Positions 29,800 through 49,456 of a stretch of 64,000 nt of DNA are shown one piece after another (within the stretch, counting starts at the first letter, position 1; the number at the start of each line of letters is the position of its first letter). Source of the stretch: Pectinatus frisingensis (GTDB lineage Bacteria > Bacillota > Negativicutes > Selenomonadales > Selenomonadaceae); the NCBI RefSeq assembly GCF_015732285.1, contig NZ_WIQU01000069.1, positions 1-64,000 on the forward strand. The letters are read 5' to 3'. The position numbers and the translations under genes are program-made. Under the pieces are notes generated by a model. It had not been told where the DNA came from and ran no database searches. It saw nothing but the letters and a program-made list of their open reading frames with translations.

Positions 29800-29860
29800 A
29801 ATATTGGTTAGATTAGGAAGTTGGTTAAAATCAGAAAATGGCTATTTTGAGGTGAATTTA

Positions 29861-31840
29861 TTGCAAAAAAAATTAAAATACTTAATTGGGATATTAACTT
29901 TCTTTTTATTGACAGGAACGGCTAATGTTATGGCGATGCCGGAAATTTTAACTACCCAGCAATTGCATCCGGGTATGATCGGTACGGCTAAGACGGTTGT
30001 ACAAGGCAATGAAATAGAAAGTTTCAATGTAAAAATAATTGGAGTAGAGGATAATGGCAAGGGCGCATCCAAACAGATAATGGCAGAAGCGTATGGACCT
30101 ATTATAAATGATACTAATGGTGTTATTCATGGTATGAGCGGTAGCCCGGTGTATGTGGACGGTAGATTGATAGGGGCAGTTGCCAGAGGAATTGGCAGTG
30201 ATACCAATCCGCGGGTATTTTATATAACACCAATTGAAGATATGCTGCAGCTTTGGCAGTTTCCCGATCCTAAGGCTGATACGGGCCAGATAAATCAGGT
30301 TAAAATCGATTTGCCCAGTAGTGCGCAGCGTGTGGTGGCTGATAATGAGGAATTAGCCAGACTTTTAAAAAAGGGTCAGCCGGCAGCAAATAATAATATG
30401 GCGGCTGTTACCGCAAGAAAAGTAACGAAAGCAGCAAAAGCCGCAATGCAGTCTGAACAACAAAATAATACAGCTGAAAAGGCAGTAAAAACAGAATTTG
30501 TTGATATGACTAATTGGAAAAATAAATATGGTGGGGAAGATGATACGGTACAGGAAGGTATACCATTGGCCGTTAATGGCTTTTCCGGTGCGGGATTGGA
30601 TTATTTAAAAAAAGAATTGGCTCCATTTAATATGTACCCATATGAAACTGGTCTAATGACGACAAAACAAAGTACCGGCAGCCTTGTTGGCAATACAGCG
30701 GTGCAGCCGGGAAGTTCTGTTGGAGTAGCACTTTCCTACGGTGATTTTTCTGTAGGGGCGATAGGAACAATTACAGCCATAGACGGTAATAAAATACTGG
30801 CTTTTGGACATCCGTTCACATATCGTGGCAATGTTAATTATTTTATGACGGATGCCGATATTGTTGGAACAGCCAGCGGATTAGTAAATGGGCAGAAAGT
30901 GTCATCTTTTGGTAAGATAATCGGACGGATAAATCAGGATCGTTATTCAGGTGTCAGTGGTATTATCGGCAAATATCCGTCGGTGGTTCCGATAAAGGTC
31001 ACAGTGGATGACAAATTGCTTGAACGGCATAATGTTTATGCTGCAAACATTGCATATGATGAAGATCTGCTGCCTAACTTAGCCGCCAGTATTGCATATG
31101 CTTCACTTGACAGGACAATTGATAGTTTAAGCTCGGGTACAGCCAATGTTGAGTTCGCCATTAGGACGAATGCGGTGGACTCCGGTAAAATTACTCGTAG
31201 CAATATGTACTATAATAATGCTGATGTGGGGCAATTTTCCGTTGGCGAATTATTGCAACTGCTCAATATCATTTGTGCTGACACCAATAAGCAATATGAT
31301 ATTTTAGGAATAGACATGAAACTTTCCTTTGACGAAAAACGCAAAACAGCTTCAATAATAAGTGTTGTTCCTGATAGAGCTGTTGCTTATCCGGGCGATA
31401 TAGTGAATTTAAAGGTTACATTACAACCGTACCGTGGACAAAAAGAACAAATACTTGTACCTTATACTATACCTAAAAATGAAGCTTCGGGCGAAATGTA
31501 TCTGGAAATACGGGGCGGCGGATTGATACCGGTGGCAGCACTGGCTATGCAAGGGGTTGATCTAAGTCCGGAAGAAGATAAAACTCAGACGGCATCTGAT
31601 AAAATAAACGATTTTTTGCAGACTGATAAAAATAATGATATTATTGTCGCGCAAATTGCGCCGCCAATAATGAGTGATAAAGAACAGAAAAAAGCGGTGG
31701 AAGATGCTTTGAAAGTACAAAAACAGCTGGAAGAAAGCGGGCAGCTGGGGAAAAAACCTGCAGCACCGCAGGAAATTAAGGCTACTACCGATTATATTAT
31801 TGATAATGTGGTTAGAATTAACCTGGTAATTAAAAAATGA
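29861..31840 (+). CDS. Exported SpoIVB-type (S55) peptidase domain protein
   Basis: The 659-aa protein starts at TTG 29861 (AGGTGA 5 bases upstream) and has a signal peptide (YLIGILTFFLLTGTANVMA). The region HPGMIGTAKTVVQGN to GMSGSPVYVDGRLIGAVARG resembles the Ser-containing part of SpoIVB, with the likely nucleophile near S95. The motif GNKILAFGHPF, matching the His-containing block, comes later near H317, the reverse of the SpoIVB order. A beta-rich C-terminal region ends in NVVRINLVIKK. The role is unknown; in a diderm without evidence of sporulation here, a periplasmic processing role is inferred. Confidence 0.82.
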   Translation: MQKKLKYLIGILTFFLLTGTANVMAMPEILTTQQLHPGMIGTAKTVVQGNEIESFNVKIIGVEDNGKGASKQIMAEAYGPIINDTNGVIHGMSGSPVYVDGRLIGAVARGIGSDTNPRVFYITPIEDMLQLWQFPDPKADTGQINQVKIDLPSSAQRVVADNEELARLLKKGQPAANNNMAAVTARKVTKAAKAAMQSEQQNNTAEKAVKTEFVDMTNWKNKYGGEDDTVQEGIPLAVNGFSGAGLDYLKKELAPFNMYPYETGLMTTKQSTGSLVGNTAVQPGSSVGVALSYGDFSVGAIGTITAIDGNKILAFGHPFTYRGNVNYFMTDADIVGTASGLVNGQKVSSFGKIIGRINQDRYSGVSGIIGKYPSVVPIKVTVDDKLLERHNVYAANIAYDEDLLPNLAASIAYASLDRTIDSLSSGTANVEFAIRTNAVDSGKITRSNMYYNNADVGQFSVGELLQLLNIICADTNKQYDILGIDMKLSFDEKRKTASIISVVPDRAVAYPGDIVNLKVTLQPYRGQKEQILVPYTIPKNEASGEMYLEIRGGGLIPVAALAMQGVDLSPEEDKTQTASDKINDFLQTDKNNDIIVAQIAPPIMSDKEQKKAVEDALKVQKQLEESGQLGKKPAAPQEIKATTDYIIDNVVRINLVIKK

Positions 31841-36266: not shown

Positions 36267-36304
36267 TATTAAGTTTTAATTAATGTTTGTCAGGAGGAAG
36301 ACAA

Positions 36305-39300
36305 ATGAGAAAACCGTCGAAAAAAATTGCGATAATTGTAAGCACATTTATCTGTATAATATTGACGGTTTTCTTTTTTTCTGTCCGGCAGGCAGATAAT
36401 TTTATGCAGTCGGCTGCACAATTGGCGAGCAGCAAGTTATCTCAGGTAATATCTACCAGAGTGAACGTGGGAACAGTGTCAGTAAAATCATTATCCAGTT
36501 TGGAAGCAGGGGAAGTAACAATTTACGATAAAACAGGGGCAATATTAATACAAGCAGGCCGCGTCGATGTCAGGTTCAGCCTGTGGCAGATAATTGTGGG
36601 GAATTTGGCTAAAAGTATTGACGAAGTCGATATAAAAGGCCCTTGTGTAAATATTGTGAAACGTGATGACGGCACATGGAATTATCGCGACGTTATTTCA
36701 CAAGACCAGACCAATAACGATTTTTCTGGCAATATAAGGTTTATAGATGGGAAAGCAGCTGTTGAATTCGATGGTAAAAAAATTGGTTTTTCTCATGTAA
36801 CAGGTAATATTGATTTTGCGGATAAACAGAAGAAACGGATTAATGCAAAATTACAACAAGACGGTACGTCGCTCAATGTCAATGGCGAAATTGGTGATGC
36901 GGTGCAGACGTTTGATATAAAGGCAGACAAGCTGGATGTTTTACCATATCTTGAGTTTATACCGCAAGATATGGTCCCCAAAAATTTTACAATAAAAAAA
37001 GGCTTGCTGGAAAATATTGACATAGTTTTCAATCTGGATTCATCAGGTATTATTGGCATTCAGGGGAAAACGAAAATTGCTGATGCTGCTTGTAAAGTAA
37101 TGAATACAGATATTGATGACATTAATGGATTGGTTGTTTTTAATAAGGATGATGTTACTGTTTTTGCTAATGCAGCAATAAATCAACAGATAGTGAAAGT
37201 ACACGGAAAAGTGACATTACAAGACGATCCGCAGCTCTTTCTTGCTGTGCGTTCAGATGCATTGAACTTTAAAAATGTGTTGCCGGAAATCCCTGTTGAT
37301 GGGAATGTGGCTTTTGCCGCACAGATTACTGGAACTATGAGTGATCCGGCAATACATGCTTTTTTGTCGGCAAAACAGGTTGATTGTTACGGATATCAAT
37401 TTACTGCTCTGCAGACTGAAGTGGATTTGGTGGATGATATAGTATATATAAAAAATGCGTCAGCCGGATTTGCTGGTGGAAATGTCACAGCAGAAGGAAC
37501 CTTTTCAATAAAAGATAATTCTTATAGCGGACATGCTGTATTGAAGAACATCCAGTGCGGCCAATTGCAAGAATATGTTGGTGGGTTATCAGGAAAATTG
37601 TCGGGGAATATTGATTTTACGGGCATTTTGGGAAACAACAATAGTATCAAATTATACGGATCTGTGTCAATTGATGATGCTATTTATAATGAAATAGCAA
37701 TTAATAAAATTGATGCAGCAGTTTCAATGCAGGGAAAAAACGTCCAAGTCAGTGCTTTGACTATATCTTTGGCTGACGGCGGCAATATAGCGGCAGCTGG
37801 TAAAATAACGGGCAGCAGCCTTGATTTGGAATTTTATGGTTCGAATATAGATTTGTCATTATTAAAAAATTACACGTCAATACAATTATCGGGTACGGCA
37901 GATTTTTATGGACATCTGTCAGGAAGTATCAATAATCCTTATTTGGATCTTAAACTTGTTGCCTATGACGGACAAGTAATGGGACAGCCATACCATGATA
38001 TGCGCATTTCTGCGGCAGGTAGTATGGATGGTGTAAAAATAGAGAAAATGACAATGCAAAATGGAACCAATGAAATTATTCACAGTGCTCAAGGAACTAT
38101 TGGGTTTACGGGAGAAAAACAGATAGACTTAACAATAGATACTAAAAATGCTCGCATGGAGAATATTGCTGAAGCATTTTTCCCGGATCAGCCAATAACT
38201 GGAAATATTGATAATCAAGTTCATTTGACAGGTACTGTTGATAACATAAGGGCTGACGGACATGTTCTTTTTCATGAGGGAAGCTACCGAGGAGTATTAC
38301 TTACATCGGCAGAAGGCAGCTATACCTACGCGTCTGGTAAAATAATACTACGAAATTTTGTTGTAAAATCTCCTTTTGCAGACATGAACATAGATGGCAG
38401 CATTATTGATAATAGACTGGATATTAATGTAAGCATAGATCCGATGGATTTTGCCAAAATCCCGTCTTTGCCATATCAGTTGAAAGGAATCGGTAGTTTT
38501 AAAGGCCACGTAGGAGGCACTTTTGATAATATTGCCATTGAGGGGAATATACAGGCACTACAGATAATATTTAATGGTGAAGCGGTGACTAATGTCACAG
38601 GTGAATGTAATTATCAAGATGGAATATTAAAAATAACTGAAATGAAATGTAAACAGGCTGATGGTAATATTTCATTTGATAGTCAGGTGAATTTGATTAA
38701 CGGCAGTCTTTCAGGGAAATTAAAAGCGGAGGGAATATCAGCTAAGGCGTTAACTTCAATGGTGAATTTACCTAATGAATATTTAACAGGCAGTTTTTCC
38801 GGAGAAGTGGATTTAAATGGTGAAATTTCTAATCCTGGTGCTCATTTAACAGGAAAAGTTGAGAATGGACATTTGAAAAAATATCCGCTGCAAGAAATTT
38901 CACTTGATGCCTCATATGAAAATGGAATAGTTACGATTAACCGTTTTTATGGACAACAAAATGCCGGAAAAGTTGCAGCAAGAGGAACATGGAATAGACA
39001 CGGTGCTGTTGATATGGAGATTTCCACCGAGGGAATAGATGCCAGTATGCTGGCAGACATTATGGACTATAATGTGAATGTCAGGGGAACAATGAACGCC
39101 TATACCAAAATAAGCGGCACGGCGGATAGTCCGCAGGCAGATGTGTCTTTTGAAGTGGACAATGGTGGTGTGCGTACCACGACATTTGATAAAATGACCG
39201 GTTTGCTGAATTTACAAAAAGGTATAATAAATGTAAGACAGATATTGATGAATAAAGGAGAATATAAGATTTCTGCCAATGGGAAAATTCCGCTTATTGC

Positions 39301-40612
39301 GTTGAAAGCGGCTCCGTGGGAAATGCTCGCTCAATATGATCAGATCGATTTAAACATATCGTTGGATAATGCCGACATAAGTGTTTTACCGTTATTGTCC
39401 AAGCACGTTGAGTGGGCAACAGGGGCGTTAAAAGGAGGGTTAAAGATAACCGGTACATTGGCGCATCCTTTGTTTAACGGTACACTTAAAATGACAGATG
39501 GCGCTATGAAAATAAAAGAGTCAAAAATCCCGCTGCAAAGTATGCAGATGGATATAGTTTTTGATCGTGAGCAAATGAAGGTGAATGATTTTTCCGGGAA
39601 AATTGGCAATGGTACTTATTCATTGACTGGCAGCACATTGATAACAGGCGGGGGATTGCGAGATTATAATTTTGCTTTATCAATTGATAAAATAGCACTG
39701 GATAGTGATTACTATAAGGGACCATTCAGTGCACAGCTGAAACTTACTGAAGAAACTATATTTAAGCGTGTGTTACCTAAATTAGCGGGTAGCATAATTA
39801 TTGATAATACCACTTTATCCTTCCCTGGTGTTCCTGATAACAGTGTATCAATACTGCCTGATATGTTGATTGATGTAGATATAAATGTTGGAAAGAATGT
39901 TCATCTTTATAAATCAATGCTGTATGATATGGACATAATGGGTAATGTTCATTTTGGAGGCACGACAAAACATCCTATGCCGTCAGGAGAAATTAACGTA
40001 ATAAGAGGCCGGATTGAATATTTGAGGACAATTTTTAAAATTCAGGAGGGAGCTGCTTATTTCAACCAGGTCGGCTCATTTTTGCCAAGTATAATATTTA
40101 AGGCTCAAGCTAATTTATCACAAACAAGAATTGATTTATCAATTCAAGGTCCTATTGGAAACATGGAATTCCTGCTGACATCAGAGCCAGCTATGAGTCA
40201 GGAAGAAATATTAAAACTATTGACTTTTCGTGAAGCTTATAAGCAGGGCAGCGATATTGGATCTTCTGATTTGGCGCAGCTGGCAACGGTTGGTCTGCAG
40301 ATGAGTTTCTTTAATGAAATTGAAGGATTCATTCGTGACACATTAAAACTTGACGAATTTAATATTGTGCGGGATACTATTTATAATGCTGATGGACATA
40401 ATACGCAACAAGGAAATTCTGATGAAATTTATAATATTGAAATAGGAAAATACATTTCTAATAAGATATTACTGAAGTATAGTAATGGTGTAAATTATGA
40501 TAGTCATAAGTATGGAGTAGAATATGACTTTAATAATAATCTAAGTGTACTTAATGAATGGGACAGCAGAAGCGGACATAAAATAACTTTAGAGGCAAAC
40601 ATAAAATTTTGA
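36305..40612 (+). CDS. tamB: TamB-like AsmA-family envelope transport protein
   Basis: Very long periplasmic protein (1435 aa) that bridges the two membranes and is thought to carry phospholipids. It has one N-terminal membrane helix (AIIVSTFICIILTVFFFSV), then repeated beta-strand units with GxIxGxxxxP motifs, such as AFAAQITGTMSDPAIHAF and NAYTKISGTADSPQADV. The C-terminal DUF490 domain is from about 1050 onward (INVIRGRIEYLRTIFKIQEG, then SEPAMSQEEILKLLTF). AGGAGG is 7 bases before the ATG. No TamA gene is adjacent; BamA lies 1.4 kb downstream. Confidence 0.93.
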   Translation: MRKPSKKIAIIVSTFICIILTVFFFSVRQADNFMQSAAQLASSKLSQVISTRVNVGTVSVKSLSSLEAGEVTIYDKTGAILIQAGRVDVRFSLWQIIVGNLAKSIDEVDIKGPCVNIVKRDDGTWNYRDVISQDQTNNDFSGNIRFIDGKAAVEFDGKKIGFSHVTGNIDFADKQKKRINAKLQQDGTSLNVNGEIGDAVQTFDIKADKLDVLPYLEFIPQDMVPKNFTIKKGLLENIDIVFNLDSSGIIGIQGKTKIADAACKVMNTDIDDINGLVVFNKDDVTVFANAAINQQIVKVHGKVTLQDDPQLFLAVRSDALNFKNVLPEIPVDGNVAFAAQITGTMSDPAIHAFLSAKQVDCYGYQFTALQTEVDLVDDIVYIKNASAGFAGGNVTAEGTFSIKDNSYSGHAVLKNIQCGQLQEYVGGLSGKLSGNIDFTGILGNNNSIKLYGSVSIDDAIYNEIAINKIDAAVSMQGKNVQVSALTISLADGGNIAAAGKITGSSLDLEFYGSNIDLSLLKNYTSIQLSGTADFYGHLSGSINNPYLDLKLVAYDGQVMGQPYHDMRISAAGSMDGVKIEKMTMQNGTNEIIHSAQGTIGFTGEKQIDLTIDTKNARMENIAEAFFPDQPITGNIDNQVHLTGTVDNIRADGHVLFHEGSYRGVLLTSAEGSYTYASGKIILRNFVVKSPFADMNIDGSIIDNRLDINVSIDPMDFAKIPSLPYQLKGIGSFKGHVGGTFDNIAIEGNIQALQIIFNGEAVTNVTGECNYQDGILKITEMKCKQADGNISFDSQVNLINGSLSGKLKAEGISAKALTSMVNLPNEYLTGSFSGEVDLNGEISNPGAHLTGKVENGHLKKYPLQEISLDASYENGIVTINRFYGQQNAGKVAARGTWNRHGAVDMEISTEGIDASMLADIMDYNVNVRGTMNAYTKISGTADSPQADVSFEVDNGGVRTTTFDKMTGLLNLQKGIINVRQILMNKGEYKISANGKIPLIALKAAPWEMLAQYDQIDLNISLDNADISVLPLLSKHVEWATGALKGGLKITGTLAHPLFNGTLKMTDGAMKIKESKIPLQSMQMDIVFDREQMKVNDFSGKIGNGTYSLTGSTLITGGGLRDYNFALSIDKIALDSDYYKGPFSAQLKLTEETIFKRVLPKLAGSIIIDNTTLSFPGVPDNSVSILPDMLIDVDINVGKNVHLYKSMLYDMDIMGNVHFGGTTKHPMPSGEINVIRGRIEYLRTIFKIQEGAAYFNQVGSFLPSIIFKAQANLSQTRIDLSIQGPIGNMEFLLTSEPAMSQEEILKLLTFREAYKQGSDIGSSDLAQLATVGLQMSFFNEIEGFIRDTLKLDEFNIVRDTIYNADGHNTQQGNSDEIYNIEIGKYISNKILLKYSNGVNYDSHKYGVEYDFNNNLSVLNEWDSRSGHKITLEANIKF

Positions 40613-40630: not shown

Positions 40631-41254
40631 ATGGAAATTAGTGAGTATTTATCAGAAATAGGGAAAATAGTTCTGCTAGAACCTGAAGAAGAAGAAAGAT
40701 TGTGGACAGCATACAAGGATAAGCATGACGGACAGGCGCGCAGCAGGTTAATAGAATCATATCAGCCACTGGTCTTTAAATGTGCACGCAGTTTTTCTAA
40801 GGTTGAATGTATAATGGATCTTATTCAGGAAGGAACGGTTGGTCTCATTGAGGCAGTGGAAAGATATGATCCAGACAAAAATGTTGCTTTTTCATTATAT
40901 GCGGTACATCGAATAAGAGGACGCATATTAAATTATTTGAATAAAGAATACAAGGGAAATAATTGTTGCAGTTTGTATGAGATTTTTGATGATATAGTTT
41001 CTATTGCTGATGATAAGATCAGTGTACAAGATCAGGCAGAAAAGAATTTTTTGACGGGACAGGTACAACAGATAATGCTCCGTTTACCCCCAAAAGAACA
41101 GGCAATTTTGGACGGAGTGTATCTTAAAGATAAAACACCTCAGGAATTGGCTGATACAATGGATGTTAGTCTGTCACATGTTTATCGCTTACAAAAAACA
41201 GCCGTACGACGACTGCGCGGTATGATGTCTAAATTTATGCAACATTGGAATTAA
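40631..41254 (+). CDS. Sigma-70 family factor inside the outer-membrane cluster
   Basis: The 207-aa protein has sigma region 2 (SYQPLVFKCARSFSKVECIMDLIQEGTVGLIEAVERYDP, then YAVHRIRGRILNYL) and region 4 (LPPKEQAILDGVYLKDKTPQELADTMDVSLSHVYRLQ, a helix-turn-helix). The RIRG block recalls the FliA/SigF/SigB groups. Region 1 is missing and region 3 is reduced. AGGAGG is 8 bases before the ATG. It lies 18 bases after tamB and is followed, after a promoter, by a single-pass membrane protein. It may direct transcription of envelope genes, but its target promoters are unknown. Confidence 0.88.
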   Translation: MEISEYLSEIGKIVLLEPEEEERLWTAYKDKHDGQARSRLIESYQPLVFKCARSFSKVECIMDLIQEGTVGLIEAVERYDPDKNVAFSLYAVHRIRGRILNYLNKEYKGNNCCSLYEIFDDIVSIADDKISVQDQAEKNFLTGQVQQIMLRLPPKEQAILDGVYLKDKTPQELADTMDVSLSHVYRLQKTAVRRLRGMMSKFMQHWN

Positions 41255-41299
41255 TAGATAAGAAATCAGCAGAAAATAAGTATTTATAGGCTTAAAAAA

Positions 41300-41326
41300 T
41301 TGTTTAATGGCTATTTTTGCTATAAT
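41300..41326 (+). promoter_or_regulatory. Promoter of the 41414 gene and bamA
   Basis: TATAAT (41321-41326) preceded by TGC, an extended -10 element, with TTGTTT (41300-41305) 15 bases upstream. The short spacer is offset by the extended -10. The leader to 41414 is about 80 bases. Confidence 0.55.
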
Positions 41327-41413
41327 AAAGCTATATTTGCTTAGAAATGGTATGCGGAATATATTTTTCTTATTGGATATTAATATCAGGCATAGATAAA
41401 GGAGGTCAGTCTC

Positions 41414-41989
41414 ATGGCGAAAGTTGATAAAGTAATGAAGGAACATGTTAGTGCGGCAAAAAGATGGCTGGGCAAGGCAGAAACTTCATTGGAAAATAAA
41501 AATAATATTCGCGGGGATCTTCATATCATGCTGGCGGAAGCAGAATTGAAATGTGCCAGGGAAAAGATGGAGAAGAATGGGCGGCCATTTTGGCGCAGGC
41601 ATGTTATTCCATTAGCAATGGGGGGGTTATTCCTTTTGTTGGGAGGCTATTGGCTGTTCGCCGGTACGGGCAGCACTATGACGGATCAGGTAAGTGTGCC
41701 TGCGGTTGCTACGGCAACTGTGACAAAACCTATGACTGATAAATTACCGGTATCAGCGGTGGTATCAAATGGGGAAAAAGCTTCACCGGAAGGTTCAGCA
41801 ACGAGTGATATAAAAGTGGAATCGCAGCAGTCTGCCGGTTCCACTGAGAAGGCGGTATCTCAAGAAGAAAGTATACCTAAGGCGAATTTGGAAAAACAAA
41901 CGATTAATAATGTTGAGGCCAAACCTCAGATCCCTTCTAAAGAAATGCAGCAGTTGATGCGCACCGCAAAAAAAACATTACAAGAGTAA
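41414..41989 (+). CDS. Single-pass membrane protein of unknown function between sigma factor and bamA
   Basis: The 191-aa protein has three parts. A charged helical N-terminal part (about residues 1-58, AKRWLGKAETSLENKNNIRG and MLAEAELKCAREKMEK) should be cytosolic. One membrane helix follows (VIPLAMGGLFLLLGGYWLFAG, about 64-85). The rest is a Ser/Thr/Lys-rich tail that would be periplasmic and ends in MQQLMRTAKKTLQE. This is the topology of an anti-sigma factor, although the HxxxCxxC zinc motif is absent. AGGAGG is 8 bases upstream. It lies 159 bases after the sigma gene and just before bamA. Confidence 0.75.
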   Translation: MAKVDKVMKEHVSAAKRWLGKAETSLENKNNIRGDLHIMLAEAELKCAREKMEKNGRPFWRRHVIPLAMGGLFLLLGGYWLFAGTGSTMTDQVSVPAVATATVTKPMTDKLPVSAVVSNGEKASPEGSATSDIKVESQQSAGSTEKAVSQEESIPKANLEKQTINNVEAKPQIPSKEMQQLMRTAKKTLQE

Positions 41990-42017: not shown

Positions 42018-44039
42018 TTGAATAAAAAGAAGGGCCGCATACTGGCATATATTTTAGCTGCTACTGTAACTAATTTTACGTTGGTAGAGCCACCAGTTAT
42101 TCATGCGCAAGAGACCGGTGAATCATATGATAATACAAGTGCAGACGCGGGTGATGCTGATAGTACAGAAAATGTGCCGGCAGAGGGTACAGTAAATACC
42201 GAAAATGACACAACCGCAAACGTCCAAACTGCTGCAGCACCACCAGCTGAAAATGAACCCGTTAAAACCGCAGAACAAAGTAAGCAGGATGGGCAGCCAG
42301 TACAAAATACCGCACCTGATAGAACAAAAATCATTGATAGCTGGAATCAACAGCGACCTTCTGAAGACGACCTGACTAAAGCTGGTTCACAGTATGATGG
42401 TATGACTGTGGTTAGTGTTGATGTTACCGGGGAAGAAACGTTACCGGCGGCAATGGTACAGAATGTCATTAAGGTAAAGCCCGGTGACATATTTAAAAGT
42501 GATAATATTGCTGCCGATCGCCAGGCTATTTATGAAACAGGTCTGTTTTATGATAACTTTCCGACATATGAAGTAATTCCGGAAGGTGTAAAAATTACAT
42601 ATCATGTAATGGAAAATCCTATATTAAAACAGGTAAACATATCAGGCAACAAGGTATTATCTACCAATAAAATAAAAAGTCTGCTTACTGTAGAAGACGG
42701 AAAGGTGCTGAACAGTAAGACCTTAAATGATAATATTGCCAATATTGAAGCTGAATATAGAAAAGAAGGGTATATTCTTGCCAAAATTGGTAATATGTCA
42801 ATAAATGAGCAAGGCGTATTGGATCTGGCTTTTAATGAAGGAATATTAGAAGGATATACAGTAAAGGGTAATGATAAAACAAAAACAAAAGTTATAACCC
42901 GTGAAATGCGTATGAAGCCGGGAGATGTATTTAATGCCAAACTGGCTAAACGCAGTATGCAGCGTATTTATAATCTGGGCTTTTTTGAAGATGTTAATAT
43001 GAAATTATTGCCCGGTAAGGATCCGGATAAAATTATTATTGAAATAACCGTAGTGGAAAAACGTACTGGTTCATTTGGCGTGGGAGCAGGTTATAGTAAT
43101 ACTGATGGGATGATTGGGACAATTAGTCTCAGTGACAGCAATTTCCGCGGGACCGGCGATGCAGTCAAATTGACATATGAATTTGGCGGCAGTGGTAATG
43201 ATGATCGCGGAGTTACTTTCAGTTATCGTCATCCATGGCTCGATTCGAAGGAAACGTCTATGACATTGCGTCTGTATGATCGTACATATGAATATTATGA
43301 CTATAATACCGATGGGCATGAGATAGAAGGTTATGATCGCAATTACAGAGGCGGAGAAGTGACATTCGGTCGTCCTGAAAGCGAATATGTAACGAATTTT
43401 ATAACGTTGAAAAATCGCCAGGATGAATATAAGGGATATGAAGAGGGTCTGGACCGAAGCGGTGATACGGATTGGCTTGACAGCAATTTCGGAACGACAC
43501 GCAGTATAATTTTTACCAGAGCGTACGATACACGGGATAATGTATATAATCCCACACAGGGGGCGACTTACACTATTAGTGCTGAGTTTGCCGGACTGAG
43601 TGGAGATTTTAATTACAATAAATATACTTTCAGCGGGCAGAAGTATTATAACTTAGGACATTCACATGTTTTGGCACTGCGATTTGATGGTGGTTATTCA
43701 GATAATGACCTTCCTGAGTCATCACAGTTTCAGATAGGTGGACAGGGAAGTCTCCGCGGTTATAAGGACAACCAGTTTAAAGGGAATAACATGATGACTG
43801 GTTCGGTTGAATATAGATTCCCAGTAGTAAATAAAGTTCAGGGAGCTTTGTTTTATGACGTCGGTGATGCATGGAGCGGGCGTCAGTGGCCTTGGCAGTC
43901 TATTGAACAAGATTTCACACTGCACCACAGCTATGGTATAGGCGCACTGATAGAGACTCCGGTAGGACCACTGCGCTTGGATTACGGCATTGGAGAAAAT
44001 GGCGGCCGGGTTAATTTTTCCGTTGGAGGAACATTTTAA
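42018..44039 (+). CDS. bamA: Outer-membrane protein assembly factor BamA
   Basis: Inserts beta-barrel proteins in the outer membrane. The 673-aa protein starts at TTG behind AGGAGG. It has a signal peptide, a low-complexity segment to about residue 115 and three POTRA domains (about 133-205, 206-280 and 281-352), against five in E. coli. The barrel is about 353-673 and includes SQFQIGGQGSLRGYKDN, the conserved RGF/RGY motif of lid loop L6. The chain ends in VNFSVGGTF with the terminal Phe. Confidence 0.95.
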   Translation: MNKKKGRILAYILAATVTNFTLVEPPVIHAQETGESYDNTSADAGDADSTENVPAEGTVNTENDTTANVQTAAAPPAENEPVKTAEQSKQDGQPVQNTAPDRTKIIDSWNQQRPSEDDLTKAGSQYDGMTVVSVDVTGEETLPAAMVQNVIKVKPGDIFKSDNIAADRQAIYETGLFYDNFPTYEVIPEGVKITYHVMENPILKQVNISGNKVLSTNKIKSLLTVEDGKVLNSKTLNDNIANIEAEYRKEGYILAKIGNMSINEQGVLDLAFNEGILEGYTVKGNDKTKTKVITREMRMKPGDVFNAKLAKRSMQRIYNLGFFEDVNMKLLPGKDPDKIIIEITVVEKRTGSFGVGAGYSNTDGMIGTISLSDSNFRGTGDAVKLTYEFGGSGNDDRGVTFSYRHPWLDSKETSMTLRLYDRTYEYYDYNTDGHEIEGYDRNYRGGEVTFGRPESEYVTNFITLKNRQDEYKGYEEGLDRSGDTDWLDSNFGTTRSIIFTRAYDTRDNVYNPTQGATYTISAEFAGLSGDFNYNKYTFSGQKYYNLGHSHVLALRFDGGYSDNDLPESSQFQIGGQGSLRGYKDNQFKGNNMMTGSVEYRFPVVNKVQGALFYDVGDAWSGRQWPWQSIEQDFTLHHSYGIGALIETPVGPLRLDYGIGENGGRVNFSVGGTF

Positions 44040-44054
44040 AAGGCATTAAAAAGT

Positions 44055-45362
44055 ATGTTTATCAATTTAAAAAAACTGGTATTGATTCTATTATTGGGAA
44101 TTATTTTGGCTGATACGGGAACTGTCGCGGCAGAGGCAGTGATTGATGACAATAATATTGGTGTAAATGTTATTTCGTCAGGGCAATTGCCACTATCTGT
44201 AAAGGATAGAATGCAAGACAGTGTTGCGGTTATTGCCAGACAACTTATAAGCGGTAAGACAATGGAAGATATTGCAGCTAATAAGTCACAATATGAGTCG
44301 GTGATAAAGGATGTATTCAATAAAATATTGGTTGGATATACAGTGAAAAGAGTCACTATTACTGGCAATAACGATATCGCGGTTAGTGTGGAGCTTTTGC
44401 CGTGGGATGATACAATAAGATCAGTTTCCGTACAGGTTAAGACAGATGGTGTTTCACCTGAGATCGGTGAACTGGCATTGACCGATATTAAAGATATCGG
44501 CAGTTTATTTCAGGCTGACCTATACGGATTACCAATTGATGCCATAGACTGGACTAATGGTATTTTAAAGCATAGTCTGAATAATTTTATGTTGATTCAT
44601 TTACCGGAGTTTAGGGCTGATTTTGAGATGAACCCGGGAATAGCAACAGATGTTACGGTTACAATATATCCGCGTATGCCGGTAATACGGGATATTGATT
44701 TAAAAATGCGTTCCGAGTCTATGCCAAATCTTTATTTGTTACAGGAACGGCTTTTTTGTCAGTCGCAGACGGATGTCCTATTGGGCGTTCCAATTGCTTT
44801 TGTTGAACGGCATAAAAAGTATTTCACAACAAAAATAGGTAATGCTCTGGATAGGGAAGCTGCTTTTAAAGCGGTTGATATGCACACATCGGTTGATATA
44901 GTAACGGGAGAAAAAACTTATATAACTACTCATTCTGATGCTGCAAAATATAATGTAAATATCGAAGGATGGGCTGACTTTGGGCGAAATGATAATGATA
45001 ATAACAATATTATGTATCGTATTCATCTCGGCAGATATTTGACGGATAAACATGAAATTTTTAGTCAAATATTTATAAAACCGCAGGAAACGCAAGTCGA
45101 TTGGGCAGCTGGGTATTATTACCATTTTAATGATAAATGGCGTACAGGTGGTCGTTACTTTTTTGCAGATAAGACATGGAGTATTGATACGCAGAGAATA
45201 TTTAATAAAAGATGGTCTACCCGCTTTGATTATTTGCCGGCAAAATCAAGCTGGCAGGGGGCAATAAGATATAATGTACATGATTTTATTGGACTGGAAT
45301 ATATTTGGGAACGTGATGATGGCAAAGATGACCGGTGGATAAGATTGATCGGTAATTTTTGA
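44055..45362 (+). CDS. Probable small outer-membrane beta-barrel protein of unknown function
   Basis: I do not recognise the family. The 435-aa protein has a signal peptide (LKKLVLILLLGIILADTGTVAA). An alpha/beta N-terminal half (about 25-310) contains strands such as TVKRVTITGNNDIAVSVELL, somewhat POTRA-like. A C-terminal region (about 310-435) follows, with about ten amphipathic strands (MYRIHLGRYL, WAAGYYYHFN, WSTRFDYLP, FIGLEYIWERD) and the ending WIRLIGNF. The terminal Phe is the outer-membrane targeting signal. It starts 15 bases after bamA, so it is likely to be coexpressed with it. Confidence 0.75.
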   Translation: MFINLKKLVLILLLGIILADTGTVAAEAVIDDNNIGVNVISSGQLPLSVKDRMQDSVAVIARQLISGKTMEDIAANKSQYESVIKDVFNKILVGYTVKRVTITGNNDIAVSVELLPWDDTIRSVSVQVKTDGVSPEIGELALTDIKDIGSLFQADLYGLPIDAIDWTNGILKHSLNNFMLIHLPEFRADFEMNPGIATDVTVTIYPRMPVIRDIDLKMRSESMPNLYLLQERLFCQSQTDVLLGVPIAFVERHKKYFTTKIGNALDREAAFKAVDMHTSVDIVTGEKTYITTHSDAAKYNVNIEGWADFGRNDNDNNNIMYRIHLGRYLTDKHEIFSQIFIKPQETQVDWAAGYYYHFNDKWRTGGRYFFADKTWSIDTQRIFNKRWSTRFDYLPAKSSWQGAIRYNVHDFIGLEYIWERDDGKDDRWIRLIGNF

Positions 45363-45377
45363 TGTTATGTTCAGAGC

Positions 45378-45406
45378 TTGAATAAAAAGTCCATGTTTGT
45401 TATAAT
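45378..45406 (+). promoter_or_regulatory. Promoter of the OmpH-like genes and lpxD
   Basis: TTGAAT (45378-45383), a 17-base spacer and TATAAT (45401-45406), about 50 bases before the start of the first chaperone gene. Confidence 0.7.
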
Positions 45407-48576: not shown

Positions 48577-48639
48577 TTATTTGTCCGGTACAACATGATG
48601 TATGATGATATCAGCACTGAATGATACTTGCAGGAAAAC

Positions 48640-48665
48640 AAAAACGGCTTCAATGGCCGTTTTTT
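48640..48665 (+). terminator. Terminator after lpxD
   Basis: AAAAACGGC and GCCGTTTTT pair perfectly around a 7-base loop, with a T-run after the stem. Confidence 0.85.
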
Positions 48666-48727
48666 ATTTTAGTAATTATTTGGAACAGCTATATTTCATT
48701 TATCAGATGTTTTTAAGGAGAGATATG

Positions 48728-49354
48728 ATGTTTCGCAAGATATGGTTTATAAGTATATTGGCTGTGATTTTAGGAGTGGATTCATTCGCTGCTGCGGCTC
48801 CGACCACTTATGGACCAACAGGATTAATAGACATGCCTACCTCTGATATCATGCGAACTGATCAATTGGAATTAGGCTATTATAATCTGGATAAAAAAAA
48901 TTATGAAGTTTTTGCTGTTCCTTTTATAAAGGATATTGAAATAAGCGGATCACTGCGTGATGAAAATCATTCACATACACTAAAAACGATTAATGCCAAA
49001 TATAATATAATACATGAAAGCGTGCTGCGGCCGGGGATAGCTGTGGGAGTGGACGACATGGCAAATAATGATGAAACATCAGTATATGCAGTGGCCAGTA
49101 AGGCTTTACCGCTTGGACTCAGGCTTAGTGCAGGAACTGGTACACGGCGCTACAAAAATGGTTTTGTGGGGTTAGAGACAAGACTGATTCCTTTGTCCAG
49201 AGGGGGGGAATTCCCTGATATGTCACTAATGATTGAACATATTGATAGAAAAACATCCTACGGACTTCGTTTAGCGACGGCGCGGGGGTTGCAGGTAACG
49301 GCTGGTTGGCGGGACGGAGATCCCTTTTGGGGTGTGACATACACTGTGCCATAA
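48728..49354 (+). CDS. YjbH-domain-like outer-membrane or periplasmic protein
   Basis: The 208-aa protein has a signal peptide (IWFISILAVILGVDSFAAA). A beta-rich mature chain starts TTYGPTGLIDMPTSDIMRTDQLELGYYN, the opening pattern of YjbH family proteins. Full YjbH proteins are about 700 aa; this one covers only the start and ends in FWGVTYTVP without a terminal Phe. The family is tied to exopolysaccharide export in proteobacteria; the role here is unknown. The ATG at 48728 has AAGGAG 7 bases upstream; the longer frame from 48602 runs through the lpxD terminator and is not credible. Confidence 0.7.
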   Translation: MFRKIWFISILAVILGVDSFAAAAPTTYGPTGLIDMPTSDIMRTDQLELGYYNLDKKNYEVFAVPFIKDIEISGSLRDENHSHTLKTINAKYNIIHESVLRPGIAVGVDDMANNDETSVYAVASKALPLGLRLSAGTGTRRYKNGFVGLETRLIPLSRGGEFPDMSLMIEHIDRKTSYGLRLATARGLQVTAGWRDGDPFWGVTYTVP

Positions 49355-49425: not shown

Positions 49426-49456
49426 ATAATAATATCAGGCAGGAGGATTTTTTTTG

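Follow-up and report, generated by a model that had tools for sequence, protein, structure and literature searches.

The window analyzed here is a stretch of 64,000 nucleotides from Pectinatus frisingensis, and it carries an envelope gene cluster whose members described in this paragraph all lie on the + strand. The tamB gene (36287-40612; Pfam TamB, E 9e-44) forms the upstream flank and is followed by a sigma-70 family gene, here called sigX (40631-41254), which begins with an ATG at 40631 behind an AGGAGG ribosome site, stops at 41254, and encodes 207 residues with regions 2 and 4. After a gap that contains a bipartite promoter-like element (41345-41383; AAATGGTATGCGG - 16 bp - TGGATATTAA) comes tmX (41414-41989), with an ATG at 41414, a good ribosome site and a product of 191 residues that is a candidate transmembrane anti-sigma factor. 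The bamA gene (42018-44039; Pfam Omp85, E 3.9e-50, plus three POTRA) is next, and then a gene at 44055-45362 for a secreted protein of 435 residues, modeled with POTRA-like domains and a C-terminal barrel of about ten strands. This last gene, referred to below as the barrel gene, joins sigX and tmX as the third member of a module for which tamB and bamA are the context. A sequence-only reading of the window had placed a sigma-70-type gene between tamB and bamA, correctly as judged by the Pfam matches to regions 2 and 4, and had paired it with tmX; both of these genes belong to the set, but the third member was missed.

A conserved gene order

The order sigX-tmX, on the same strand, was found in all 195 unique loci, with bamA next wherever that part has been sequenced and tamB ahead of sigX wherever the locus reaches that far. 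No alternative order of tamB, sigX, tmX, bamA and the barrel gene occurs among these loci. The gap between sigX and tmX has a median length of 155 bp and that between tmX and bamA 27.5 bp, and bamA is probably co-transcribed with tmX. Within a set of 80 named loci (from Pectinatus, Selenomonas, Mitsuokella, Megamonas, Anaerovibrio, Pelosinus, Sporomusa, Propionispira and others), 79 keep tamB-sigX-tmX, together with bamA where the contig extends that far. The exception, L112:5992-6621 in a Selenomonadaceae MAG of 1.6 Mb, is a lone sigX homolog (46% identity) without tmX; it sits beside a TetR-like gene, far from envelope genes, and is the only close copy of sigX in that genome.

Several observations concern other genes near the module. 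In the window, a consensus scan detected an apparent sigma-70-like promoter of its own for skp at 45378-45406. A SpoIVB-like protein with an S55 peptidase domain is encoded within the envelope cluster at 29804-31840, the true start probably being a TTG downstream of 29804. This protein was considered as a site-1 protease for the module and was set aside as not module-specific, since 195 of the 200 class genomes have it, module-less ones among them. A candidate recoding event in the S55 gene of several oral Selenomonas (L326-L332) was also rejected, the in-frame TGA lying just 5' of the likely real TTG start. The Veillonella cluster protein Vpar_0521, which has a SpoIVB domain, is named as a study target by Poppleton and coworkers (PMC5491611). 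Farther downstream in the window, the gene at 48602-49354, between lpxD and an lpxC-looking gene at 49454, encodes a short protein that matches the N-terminal part of YjbH alone (Pfam PF06082, residues 4-132 of 658).

Joint presence and loss of the three genes

The sequence-only reading had asked whether sigX and tmX stay adjacent across the Negativicutes, and they do. Each gene was found in 163 of 200 genomes of the class. The tallies by genus and after quality filtering are identical for the two genes, and every genome listed without sigX is also without tmX, and vice versa. The pairing of sigX with tmX is not due to chance. A genome-wide search found the barrel gene in 164 of the same 200 genomes, namely the sigX/tmX set plus G153, whose contig stops inside bamA, where the sigX-tmX pair would sit. 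The genomes without the module retain tamB, bamA and skp; where tamB was recovered, it is followed directly by bamA, and the gene that normally comes after bamA is absent as well. A BamA tree built from 117 loci shows at least nine changes in module presence, and in 8 of 8 independent pairs the barrel gene changes in the same direction as sigX/tmX (p 0.008 by sign test). A single contiguous deletion does not account for this, since bamA, which separates tmX from the barrel gene, is retained throughout, and the retention of the neighboring S55 gene in 195 of 200 genomes argues that cluster genes are not generally lost together. The three genes are inherited and lost jointly, and they very likely constitute one functional module.

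The set also extends beyond the class. Six genomes in a phylum sample, all of them Omp85-positive, carry tamB-sigX-tmX-bamA. An Omp85 protein was found in 36 of the 149 genomes of that sample, and every convincing TmX match falls among those 36; furthermore, TmX is present in 9 of the 9 phylum-sample genomes that have the barrel gene. A weak TmX match in G315 proved to be an unrelated haem-type lipoprotein. The converse has a single exception: in one genome outside the class (G211; locus L164, minus strand), tamB-sigX-tmX-bamA is followed by an OmpH-like gene, and the barrel gene was not detected.

The genomic cluster concerned, the diderm cluster of Negativicutes and Halanaerobiales with TamB, BamA and Skp, has been described (Antunes 2016, PMC5007114; Poppleton 2017, PMC5491611). 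The main texts of both papers state that there is a single BamA/Omp85 homolog per genome, and these main texts make no mention of a sigma factor in the cluster. In V. parvula, three skp genes lie immediately downstream of bamA (Poppleton, PMC5491611), an arrangement that fits the absence of the module there. Among the 200 class genomes, one genus without the module (g49) is probably Veillonella, and Veillonella most likely lacks the module. In the open-access literature searched, neither an envelope-stress sigma circuit for diderm Firmicutes nor an account of how these bacteria monitor their outer membrane was found. The three-gene module is real and conserved, and apparently undescribed.

The proteins and the element before tmX

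SigX matches Pfam Sigma70_r2 (E 3.8e-16) and Sigma70_r4 (E 1.3e-10) above the cut-offs, with no Pfam match to region 3 and only a sub-threshold trace of region 1.2. It scores 108 bits against the NCBIfam sigma70-ECF superfamily (cut-off 43) and lies by a wide margin below the cut-off of every named NCBIfam equivalog. The closest sequences are of the RpoH, SigB, WhiG and FliA types, and among solved structures a profile search places WhiG and FliA nearest, followed by RpoS and SigA. With regions 2 and 4 only, and with two domains in an AlphaFold2 model, SigX has the makeup of an ECF factor; a group 3 sigma factor such as FliA, WhiG or SigB would have region 3 as well, which SigX lacks. The Pfam content and the profile neighbors thus point to an ECF-like domain content combined with a group-3-like sigma sequence.

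TmX consists of a cytosolic hairpin (residues ~1-56), a membrane helix (~57-84), a Pro-rich tail and a conserved C-terminal segment (~175-190). The same layout of a helical cytosolic part, one membrane helix and a long tail recurs over 166 homologs, in agreement with the topology ascribed to the protein in the sequence-only reading; the charge just before the membrane helix is positive (median +2), the tail has a median of 106 residues and 12% Pro, and these sequence statistics predict an N-in, single-pass protein. Alignments show the cytosolic hairpin to be the most conserved part, with an N-terminal block of HxxAAxxWLGxAExSLxxExDxRGxLxLMLAQAEL and with W18, A22, E23, L36, L40, A41 and A43 among the conserved residues, and the last 15 residues are conserved as EMQKLMxxAGKxLR. 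Cysteine is nearly absent from the 166 homologs, and an HxxxCxxC-type zinc motif (ZAS) is lacking, as had been noted for the window's protein. TmX belongs to no known family in Pfam or NCBIfam. The N- and C-terminal domain families of RseA gave no Pfam match in TmX or in 28 homologs, and neither the RsgI N-terminal domain nor the FecR domain was matched by TmX.

The relationship between the two proteins was also approached by modeling, in which SigX and residues 1-102 of TmX were folded as a single chain joined by the gap, which naturally reads through in frame. In this fused AlphaFold model (pTM 0.59), confidence is high for the two sigma domains and for the TmX hairpin and low for the linker between the two SigX domains; helix 2 of the hairpin continues into the membrane helix, and there is no readable interface. 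Mean-field DCA of 195 SigX-TmX pairs gave inter-protein couplings above shuffles; the coupling of SigX to the TmX hairpin was not above that of a SigX-bamA window control, and DCA is therefore uninformative on SigX-TmX contact. Of the sigma/anti-sigma pairing originally proposed, co-occurrence is strikingly upheld; contact was demonstrated by neither the fused model nor DCA. Classically, anti-sigma factors are encoded in this way, as single-pass N-in proteins beside a sigma gene. The topology of TmX, its conserved cytosolic part and the strict co-inheritance argue, at the level of sequence, that TmX is likely to be the anti-sigma factor of SigX.

The barrel protein (44055-45362 product) resists assignment by sequence: no Pfam family was found in 62 members of its family, neither PF01103 nor POTRA being matched, and no solved proteins similar to it in sequence were found. 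Its AlphaFold2 model (pLDDT 93, pTM 0.81) has an N-terminal helix like a signal peptide, three units of b-a-a-b-b type that resemble POTRA domains, and about ten short strands, and the C-terminus (...WIRLIGNF) has a terminal Phe like that of an outer-membrane beta-signal. The top solved structures retrieved by Foldseek with this model were BamA, TamA and FhaC (E ~1e-10, probability 1.0), with TM-scores near 0.2 and rmsd values of about 20 Å or more for the same matches, which indicates a likeness in the series of domains and not in one rigid shape. As modeled, the likeness to the Omp85 superfamily lies in a series of POTRA-like domains with an outer-membrane barrel at the C-terminus, whereas the 16 strands and PF01103 signature of an Omp85 barrel are replaced by about ten modeled strands with no such match. 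Kinship of the barrel family with BamA was tried by hhalign profile comparison and rejected, no similarity being detected. The product also has no Pfam match to a TonB-dependent receptor with a signaling domain. On the strength of the model, we call it a POTRA-like plus small-barrel protein and not an Omp85 member, and it is predicted to be a client of BAM.

A promoter-like element is conserved in the gap between sigX and tmX. Of 186 loci, 58 have the sequence GGAnTATA in this gap (a weighted count of 36, where shuffles give an expectation of 2.9), and 113 have GAnTATA. A two-block EM motif derived from the same 186 loci, with spacers of 12-24 bp allowed, took the form ataTggc.tgTca-N16/17-.gGAtTaTAt. 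Spacers of 16-17 bp carried 88% of the weight, and the motif usually lies about 37-40 bp before tmX. Scores above 10 were obtained in 71% of tmX upstream regions, versus 0.5% inside tmX, and in 0-3% of the regions that precede sigX, bamA or the barrel gene. In cross-validation between family sets, roughly half of the held-out tmX upstream regions were recognized in both directions, versus 0-2% of controls. A consensus scan found no sigma-70 consensus promoter on the + strand of the window's sigX-tmX gap, and the tmX element does not fit a sigma-A promoter. We consider the chances somewhat better than even that SigX reads it.

The reach of this element appears to be narrow. A genome-wide search of 10 Sporomusaceae-type genomes with the strict Sporomusaceae consensus gave 21 matches versus 33 for a reversed control, hence no excess, and the lack of standout extra copies makes a circuit confined to tmX, bamA and the barrel gene the simplest picture. 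The envelope-related regulon that had been suggested finds a partial counterpart in the conserved element directly before tmX-bamA; no wider regulon was found in the genome-wide search. A stable RNA fold in the sigX-tmX gap was considered and rejected, its stability being no greater than that of shuffles. In Sporomusaceae (L081, L099, L117 and L243, upstream of tmX), the spacer of the element is itself conserved, as TGACCAnAATCTGGCCTCTTnnCAGGAnTATA; this conservation exceeds the needs of a sigma site alone, and a second regulator may bind there.

A possible feedback circuit at the outer membrane

The reading that we favor, and regard as probable when taken whole, is that TmX serves as the anti-sigma factor for SigX and reports on outer-membrane assembly, with feedback on the tmX-bamA-barrel operon. 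The two-helix cytosolic hairpin of TmX would hold SigX at the inner membrane, and the long disordered tail would span the periplasm and display the conserved, helix-like C-terminal segment. This segment would most likely be read by the POTRA-like outer-membrane protein, or else by BamA, and the retention or release of SigX would depend on the state of outer-membrane assembly. Once free, SigX would start transcription at the conserved element 5' of tmX and raise the levels of tmX, bamA and the barrel gene in a loop that would amount to feedback on outer-membrane assembly. Against this reading stand a fused model and a coevolution analysis that gave no direct sign of SigX-TmX contact, the lack of extra genome-wide copies of the strict consensus in 10 genomes, the lone sigX at L112, the G211 genome with sigX-tmX but no detected barrel gene, and the absence of sequence homology between the barrel protein and BamA. 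The genes, their order, their joint inheritance and loss, the conserved element and the domain layout of TmX are observed, and the folds and the topology are predicted. We infer the binding of SigX by TmX, the binding of the tail to the barrel, the recognition of the promoter by SigX and the nature of the signal; for outer-membrane assembly as that signal, the odds are about even. A more specific version, which we offer only tentatively and consider rather doubtful, is that the small POTRA-barrel protein acts as a dedicated gauge: it would be a BAM client whose presence or absence in the outer membrane is read through the periplasm by the C-terminal segment of TmX, and SigX would adjust bamA expression to assembly capacity.

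The proposed circuit resembles several known systems in part. The RpoE (sigma E)/RseA/RseB system of Proteobacteria likewise combines a sigma factor with a single-pass N-in inner-membrane protein, and it is also tied to outer-membrane assembly, including bamA expression. In contrast, SigX is closer in sequence to WhiG-, FliA- and SigB-type sigma factors than to RpoE, TmX has no RseA family match, there is no adjacent RseB-like gene, and an extra POTRA-like barrel protein is present. The idea of a dedicated circuit built from parts unrelated to RpoE and RseA, already put forward from the sequence, is supported and is extended by a third, outer-membrane component. WhiG of the Streptomyces WhiG/RsiG pair and FliA of the FliA/FlgM pair are the closest solved sigma structures to SigX, and RsiG is a helical anti-sigma factor. 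Unlike these systems, SigX lacks region 3 and TmX is membrane-anchored, whereas RsiG and FlgM are soluble.

Other explanations can be weighed against the same evidence. TmX could be a structural or assembly partner of the barrel protein, either a trans-envelope tether or a BAM accessory, and SigX an unsequestered regulator that transcribes the set; the three genes would then co-occur because SigX has no targets but the other two. The conserved C-terminal segment and Pro-rich tail would suit a tether that spans the periplasm, a conserved promoter-like element was found before tmX alone, and both the fused model without an interface and the coevolution signal that does not exceed the bamA control are compatible with it. 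We nevertheless consider this explanation unlikely, in that TmX is most conserved in its cytosolic hairpin, a part for which a tether confined to the periplasm would have no use, and the placement of a sigma gene next to one for a single-pass N-in protein follows the standard anti-sigma layout.

The favored circuit shares with FecI/FecR/FecA a three-layer design of sigma factor, inner-membrane regulator and outer-membrane barrel, and it could be argued that SigX and TmX are a genuine sigma/anti-sigma pair that responds to something other than outer-membrane assembly, with the barrel protein as a receptor for an external ligand or nutrient and the adjacency to bamA a historical matter. The module is dispensable, as its loss from several lineages shows, and this too would suit a surface-signaling system. 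However, TmX has no FecR match, the barrel protein is modeled with POTRA-like domains and a small barrel and not as a TonB-dependent receptor, and sigX-tmX lies beside bamA, within the class and beyond it, in all 195 loci except a few cut by contig ends; such a surface-signaling role seems distinctly improbable. Least credible of all, and very improbable in our estimation, is that the genes have no functional link and are neighbors by descent that disappeared jointly through single deletions. In its favor, conservation is a general property of the cluster, and genes that lie side by side can be deleted in one event, but the intervening bamA was kept in every checked loss and the pattern recurs at least nine times.

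A conserved sigma factor, membrane protein and outer-membrane barrel set locked to the tamB-bamA cluster would provide a concrete and testable control system for diderm Firmicutes, and one that would permit comparison with sigma E. It also adds a cryptic POTRA-barrel protein to genomes that have been reported to contain a single Omp85 homolog. The repeated losses of the module mean that natural contrasts of presence and absence exist. Veillonella, the genus studied most, is most likely among the lineages that lost it, and this would account for the module having been missed. If the reading of the barrel protein as a gauge is true, the module would represent an ancestral, non-proteobacterial counterpart of sigma E, assembled from unrelated parts.
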